Positions 7,229-53,798 of a stretch of DNA of 54,460 bases are shown here, one piece after another. The notes under the pieces were generated by a model that saw only the letters and a program-made list of their open reading frames with translations, searched no databases and had not been told where the DNA came from. The position numbers and the translations under genes were made by a program. The DNA comes from Chthoniobacterales bacterium (lineage in GTDB: Bacteria; Verrucomicrobiota; Verrucomicrobiia; Chthoniobacterales; JACTMZ01): assembly GCA_014879535.1 (NCBI GenBank), contig JACSRX010000094.1, positions 1 to 54,460 of the forward strand. Direction: 5' to 3'. Within the stretch, counting starts at the first letter, position 1; each line of letters starts with the position of its first letter.

Positions 7229-7316
7229 GGAGGGGTGCCAGAGCGGTTGAATGGACCGGTCTTGAAAACCGGAGAGGCGCAAGTCTCCGTGGGTTCGAAT
7301 CCCACCCCCTCCGCCA
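7229..7316 (+). tRNA. tRNA-Ser (anticodon UGA)
   Basis: The 88-nt cloverleaf has acceptor stem GGAGGGG/CCCCTCC, a long variable arm typical of Ser, and T-arm GTGGG-TTCGAAT-CCCAC. The anticodon stem CCGGT/ACCGG encloses loop CTTGAAA, giving anticodon TGA. The discriminator is G and CCA is encoded (7314-7316). Its last 19 nt recur 99 bp downstream (see the repeat entry). Confidence 0.97.
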
Positions 7317-7415
7317 TTTCGCCGGAGGCGAAGTCGAAACCTTCCGGTGGGATGAGAACCGTTCGAGCGCGAAGCACAGGTTGCCGTCAGGCAACCAATC
7401 CCACCCCCTCCGCCA
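7298..7415 (+). repeat. tRNA-Ser tail cassette: 19-nt direct repeat of the tRNA 3' end with structured spacer
   Basis: The last 19 nt of tRNA-Ser (7298-7316, AATCCCACCCCCTCCGCCA, from T-loop position 58 through CCA) is repeated exactly at 7397-7415. The 80-bp spacer (7317-7396) contains a hairpin TTCGCC/GGCGAA (7318-7332), a block GCGAAGTCGAA (7328-7338) and CGCGAAGC (7368-7375). It ends in a perfect 7-bp-stem hairpin GGTTGCC/GGCAACC (7379-7396) that directly abuts the second copy. The tRNA-Gln gene at 53635 has the same architecture. An att-like origin or a functional tail element is possible; neither is shown by sequence alone. Confidence 0.85.
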
Positions 7416-53634: not shown

Positions 53635-53708
53635 TGCCTCGTGGTGTAACGGTAGCACAAGTGATTCTGGATCACTTTGTCATGGTTCGAATCCATGCGA
53701 GGCAGCCA
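53635..53708 (+). tRNA. tRNA-Gln (anticodon CUG)
   Basis: The 74-nt cloverleaf has acceptor TGCCTCG/CGAGGCA, anticodon stem AGTGA/TCACT around loop TTCTGGA (anticodon CTG), and T-loop TTCGAAT. The discriminator is G and CCA is encoded (53706-53708). Its last 19 nt are repeated 90 bp downstream. Confidence 0.97.
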
Positions 53709-53798
53709 ATCTCGGATTCGCGAACTCGAATCATCCTCGGCACGCGAAGCCACCCCCGGAAAGGTCGCCACGGGCGACCAATCCATGCGAGGCAGCCA
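53690..53798 (+). repeat. tRNA-Gln tail cassette: 19-nt direct repeat of the tRNA 3' end with structured spacer
   Basis: AATCCATGCGAGGCAGCCA (53690-53708, from T-loop position 58 through CCA) recurs at 53780-53798. The 71-bp spacer has the inverted repeat GATTCG/CGAATC (53715-53732), GCGAACTCGAA (53720-53730) and CGCGAAGC (53743-53750). It ends in the 7-bp hairpin GGTCGCC/GGCGACC (53763-53779) that abuts the repeat. Each element has a counterpart in the tRNA-Ser cassette at 7298. Confidence 0.85.

Follow-up and report, generated by a model that had tools for sequence, protein, structure and literature searches.

Why should the 3' end of a tRNA gene be repeated, letter for letter, a short distance downstream of the gene? 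The question is raised by two places in the window, i.e., the whole analysed stretch of 54,460 nucleotides. Behind tRNA-Ser(TGA), the last 19 nt of the gene, AATCCCACCCCCTCCGCCA, were found at 7298-7316 and again, without a mismatch, at 7397-7415, giving a unit of 99 bp. Behind tRNA-Gln(CTG), the last 19 nt, AATCCATGCGAGGCAGCCA, occupy 53690-53708 and 53780-53798. An earlier note, made from the sequence alone, had described the Ser duplication in these terms and had placed the start of both duplications at A58; both statements proved correct. The first 14 nt of the Ser and of the Gln tail occur at two places each in the whole window and no more, and the chance expectation for an exact 19-mer within 150 bp is about 5e-10. 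A chance origin of the two tail copies is excluded.

The units are laid out as leader, arm antisense to the tail, core consisting of a small hairpin between two GA, interior, terminal hairpin and tail from A58 to CCA (Table 1). In the Ser cassette the core is such a hairpin between GA..GA, with the stem GAAC..GTTC in relatives. Directly 5' of the second Ser tail stands the perfect 7-bp hairpin that had been reported there, and the Ser and Gln hairpins do share one form, GGTTGCC/GGCAACC versus GGTCGCC/GGCGACC, both abutting the tails. Folded without the tRNA, the Ser cassette formed a helix of 8 bp between arm and tail copy, P1, together with the terminal hairpin, as predicted. The two spacers had further been expected to align above chance. 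The elements GCGAA-S-TCGAA and CGCGAAGC are indeed present in both, but the similarity does not exceed chance: the best local alignment was the 11-mer alone with a score of 17, while dinucleotide-shuffled spacer pairs scored 14.2 ± 2.4 and 278 of 2000 reached or surpassed the real pair. It is the wider family, and not the Ser-Gln spacer pair alone, that establishes the kinship of the cassettes.

Table 1. Coordinates of the Ser and Gln cassettes and their host genes in the window.
Feature	Position	Strand	Basis
tRNA-Ser(TGA), host gene	7229..7316	+	ARAGORN and Rfam RF00005; tail A58-CCA is 7298-7316
Ser cassette leader, hairpin TTCGCC-GGA-GGCGAA (7318-7332), without T-run	7317..7345	+	sequence; terminator scan negative
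P1 5' arm GGTGGGAT, Ser cassette	7346..7353	+	complementary to tail-copy ATCCCACC, partner 7398-7405
RtT core GA-GAACCGTTC-GA-G, Ser cassette	7354..7367	+	R1 match 7344-7410, 63.8 bits; invariant alignment columns
Variable interior CGCGAAGCACA, Ser cassette	7368..7378	+	alignment A1
Terminal hairpin GGTTGCC-GTCA-GGCAACC, abutting tail copy	7379..7396	+	sequence, fold; covarying in relatives
tRNA-Ser tail, copy 2; first part is 3' strand of P1	7397..7415	+	exact repeat
tRNA-Gln(CTG), host gene	53635..53708	+	ARAGORN and Rfam RF00005; tail 53690-53708
Gln leader and interior, full RtT core not recognisable, GGAAAGG before hairpin	53709..53762	+	no R1 match
Terminal hairpin GGTCGCC-ACG-GGCGACC, Gln cassette	53763..53779	+	sequence, fold; perfect 7-bp stem
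tRNA-Gln tail, copy 2	53780..53798	+	exact repeat

Resemblance to the RtT RNAs

The earlier note missed that elements of this kind are known, namely rtT/RttR of E. coli (RF00391), whose defining features are the core GGATGAGAAC..GTTCGA and an arm that can pair with the tail. The RF00391 consensus contains GGAUGAGAA..GUuCGAg and ends with AAUCCuuCcCccaCCACCA. Both window units close, like those of E. coli K-12, with the host tail repeated from A58 through CCA (19 of 19 positions for Ser as well as for Gln). The Ser cassette in addition carries the core GGAUGAGAA..GUUCGA with its hairpin between GA..GA at 7350-7367, and it is closed by the 8-bp helix of arm and tail, which covaries over 23 tails. 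The GA..GA around the small hairpin fits the tandem GA motif of RtT, known from a published covariation analysis (PMC7657543).

The Rfam RtT model matched the Ser-GCT cassette of the host genome from end to end, tail included, with 45.8 bits, the cut-off being 45. This was the sole cassette of that genome above the cut-off, and neither the Ser nor the Gln cassette of the window was listed at E<=10. As a census tool RF00391 misses most verrucomicrobial units, and a covariance model, R1, was therefore built from relatives; against R1 the window Ser cassette scored 63.8 bits. Matches to the Rfam families sX4 and Plastid-psbl-rps4 were discarded, being below the cut-off and resting on the tRNA body. 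The search with R1 did not recover the window Gln cassette, in which the arm-tail pairing is reduced to GGA/UCC. Since the core is not recognisable there, only the Ser cassette of the window pair was assigned to RtT. The same reduced, coreless subfamily was found in G006 and G010. Its hairpin-plus-tail layout and the intermediate-looking Asn units may link the Gln cassette to RtT, a link that carries no scored match.

To our knowledge, the tyrT repeats of E. coli have been known for decades with no agreed function; the founding paper on rtT is said to be that of Bosl and Kersten in 1991. In the tyrT/tyrV locus of K-12 the tail copies, AATCCTTCCCCCACCACCA, recur at a spacing of 178 bp, each unit containing GGGGAAGGATGAGAAG..AAGGTTCGA, and the end of the annotated RttR (1287066-1287236) at 1287066 is exactly the 3' end (CCA) of a tail copy. 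Like the units described here, those of E. coli end in the exact tRNA tail from A58 to CCA, have the GGATGAGAA..GTTCGA core with a tail-complementary arm, and occur as head-to-tail tandem copies with GC-rich hairpins. They differ in being 178 bp long and placed behind tRNA-Tyr, whereas the window units measure 99 and 90 bp, and here many tRNA species are served, with arms particular to each tRNA and with a coreless reduced form as well. The E. coli array is common but variable, with a match in 4695 of 5426 complete genomes, at 1 to 14 places. In strain SK1144 the tyrT locus (L178) holds both tRNA-Tyr genes with no adjoining rtT unit, and desaturase genes follow directly.

Outside E. coli, a close likeness by description is with the RtT sRNAs Arrc20 and Arrc21 of Actinobacillus pleuropneumoniae (Pasteurellaceae), which lie beside Asn and Lys tRNA genes and are expressed (PMC4986893). 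Northern blots have revealed RtT RNAs in Actinobacillus (PMC4986893), transcript data have done so in Thioalkalivibrio (PMC8092127), and processed small RNAs of the family are known from E. coli as well as from Actinobacillus. They have been described as freed from tRNA operon transcripts, with a possible link to the stringent response (PMC4986893, PMC2965389).

Covariation of the arm with the tail of the host tRNA

From A59 onward the tail pairs with the arm, which stands before GAGAAC. At arm positions 5-9, i.e., outside GGAT, 83 of 115 pairs over 23 distinct tails were Watson-Crick pairs. When the tails were dealt to other arms, 41.7 ± 4.8 pairs were obtained, and none of 20,000 shuffles reached 83. 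Arm positions 10-14 gave no clear overall pairing excess over the 23 tails; longer pairing between arm and tail was seen in the single cases of Thr-TGT, Pro-GGG and Arg-ACG. In an alignment of 19 sequences both sides had changed in 30 cells, as against 10.8 ± 2.4, and the covariation score of P1 was 0.241, with slid partners scoring at most 0.079. Even GGAT, fixed elsewhere, changes with its tRNA: the cassette of a tRNA-Gly(GCC) with the tail AATCTC has the core AGATGAGAAC. One tRNA-His has AGTCCC in its own tail and AATCCC in the cassette copies, and the pair is thereby kept.

What is new here is that in each cassette one arm is rewritten so as to match, by base pairing, the tail of the tRNA it stands behind. 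A literature search of limited extent returned no report of RtT in Verrucomicrobiota or of arms matched to different tRNAs. The design of the E. coli tyrT repeat recurs in another phylum, behind many tRNAs and with an arm matched to the tRNA at hand, and this recurrence points to selection for pairing between cassette and tail.

Distribution and inheritance of the cassettes

That other tRNA genes would be followed by copies of their own tails was borne out, with several instances in the host genome and many in relatives. In the host genome (G000, 3.17 Mb in 97 contigs) seven tRNA genes have a cassette, one of them truncated by a contig end. Exact or near-exact tail copies follow Ser-TGA, Ser-CGA, Asn-GTT, Ala-CGC and Gln-CTG; Ser-GCT (contig C23) has two cassettes in tandem, and behind Ser-GGA (C71) the start of a unit is present and the contig ends inside it. 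Most of the remaining host-genome tRNAs were found without a tail copy. Except for the Gln unit, all units of this genome have in common GGATGAGAAC..GTTCGA and, ahead of it, a stretch able to base-pair with the beginning of the tail. The contigs C23, C29, C34, C36, C53, C58, C71 and C84 start or end in or beside tRNA genes, and tRNA-Ser(GCT) spans two contig edges, as C29 ends and C23 begins within the gene. These repeats probably interrupt the assembly, and the unit numbers may accordingly be too low. The same genome contains a dense, unusual tRNA array of phage- or plasmid-like appearance (G000:C90:5401-7633; L058, L049), where many T-arms read GTGCRA instead of GTTCRA.

Congeners were searched with a T-arm pattern. 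By core pattern and R1, units were found in 9 of the 11 genomes of the genus, host included, and in scattered cases in other Chthoniobacterales families. The tRNA-linked units in named MAGs belong mostly to Verrucomicrobiota (Chthoniobacterales, Terrimicrobiaceae, Akkermansiaceae). Two MAGs labelled as Bacteroidota (Chryseobacterium and Crocinitomicaceae) have arm and core behind Ser-GGA, with a tail copy in Chryseobacterium. The tRNAs followed by tail copies include Ser, Ala, Asn, Gln, Tyr, His, Arg, Pro, Thr and Gly. Among the tandem arrays is that of G010, where seven Gln tails enclose six 86-bp units; Ser-CGA of the same genome is followed by five units. A scan of the phylum for the exact core, an insensitive one, matched nine of 387 genomes, all of the same class, with none for the reversed-pattern control. 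Exact-core matches in other phyla (e.g., Nitrospirae, Thermotoga, Bifidobacterium) had no tRNA upstream and were set aside as chance-like. Seven viral contigs of IMG/VR (L167-L173) contain the exact core pattern.

The Ser-GCT cassettes of G005, G006 and G010 are orthologous: the tail is identical in 19 of 19 positions, the downstream flanks are 80-85% identical, and the interiors 86-91%, G010 differing by an indel of 34 nt. The units are thus inherited in place. The mean identity of interiors was 0.56-0.66 within the genus, irrespective of the tRNA, and 0.295 between groups, where the pair means ignore kinship; likewise with kinship ignored, it was 0.60 for different tRNAs of the same genome and 0.66 for the same tRNA in different genomes. 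To judge from these values, interiors appear to have spread or been homogenised within a lineage, with arm and tail staying tRNA-specific.

Some units are of mixed make-up. At L113 (G007:C6, minus strand) the Ser-TGA cassette has a hybrid tail, of which AATCCCACC is Ser-like and TCAGGAGCCA Asn-like, and about 1 kb upstream of it lies a tRNA-Asn with its own reduced cassettes. The hybrid tail suggests recombination between arrays. The long units L112, L128 and L229, found behind Ser-TGA and Ser-CGA, have an insert that splits the small core hairpin and resembles the interior of another unit type.

A probable trailer RNA and its alternatives

The Ser feature is probably a single-unit tRNA-tail cassette of the RtT type, which would act as a tRNA trailer RNA. 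To the observed anatomy, covariation, inheritance and tandem copies we add transcription and processing by analogy with RttR of E. coli. The cassette would be transcribed as the 3' trailer of its host tRNA, P1 would keep the second tail off the tRNA body, so that the tRNA could fold on its own tail, and tRNA processing would release a small, structured RNA with the tail copy at its end. Tandem units would likely be gained and lost by recombination between identical tails. The earlier note had proposed either a family of tRNA-targeted elements or a tail that affects maturation: a family at tRNA 3' ends it is, and as to mobility or maturation the evidence leans to a trailer RNA.

The main evidence to the contrary comes from an Akkermansiaceae MAG (G058), where each of two units behind tRNA-Thr has an intrinsic terminator ahead of its core, so that a trailer RNA would there need read-through. 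To the eye, the leaders behind Pro-GGG and at the two Bacteroidota-labelled loci resemble terminators; a terminator scan of the Pro-GGG locus called none. In the minimum-energy fold of the window tRNA-Ser and cassette alone, the 5' acceptor strand pairs with the second tail instead, which we also counted against a trailer RNA, as we did the failure of the Rfam RtT model to list the window Ser cassette and the coreless, R1-negative state of the Gln cassette.

The alternative with most in its favour, unlikely as we hold it to be, is a mobile mini-element that inserts at tRNA T-loops on the DNA level and duplicates the tail on insertion, its folded single strand (P1 and hairpins) serving as substrate for a recombinase or transposase supplied elsewhere. 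It owes its standing to the lineage-specific interiors (0.56-0.66 versus 0.295), which are shared across tRNAs while arm and tail fit the local one, and to the G058 terminator, which separates tRNA from core. Many tRNA identities are occupied, and the covariation suits folded single-stranded DNA as well as RNA. However, no unit contains a gene, the Ser-GCT cassettes have stayed in one place through inheritance, and no fresh pair of empty and filled sites was found. Nor do Y1 transposases (PF01797) track the cassettes: they were absent from the host genome, G001, G004, G005 and G006, all of which bear cassettes, and present in G008 and G009, where no cassette was found. A RAYT/REP-like element dependent on Y1_Tnp was rejected for this lack of co-occurrence. 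Somewhat more doubtful still is the idea of selfish elements that pass from one tRNA gene to another and fit themselves to each: by some hitherto undescribed mechanism the interior would move or be copied, the new host tRNA would supply the duplicated tail, and the antisense arm would be rewritten to match it.

A terminator or attenuator of the tRNA operon is very improbable. Hairpins do lie 3' of the tRNA, and a published list of candidate attenuators includes rtT-like elements (PMC2965389), but the window Ser cassette has no U-run and no terminator was called in it by the scan, the tail copy and the tRNA-specific arm would be superfluous for termination, and G058 has a separate intrinsic terminator before the core.

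Least credible of all is the attachment-site scar of a tRNA-targeted integrase, with an island shrunk by deletion to about 80 bp. Such integrases typically leave a duplicated tRNA 3' end behind, and this likeness speaks for a scar; duplicated ends of the present kind, however, need not mark integrase sites. The 80 bp between the repeats have no room for an integrase, island or cargo gene, as had been noted before, and hold instead a structured 80-nt unit with an arm matched to the tRNA. Such units are met with again behind some ten kinds of tRNA and in exact tandem arrays such as that of G010 Gln, and they show a shared core and covariation not expected of deletion scars.
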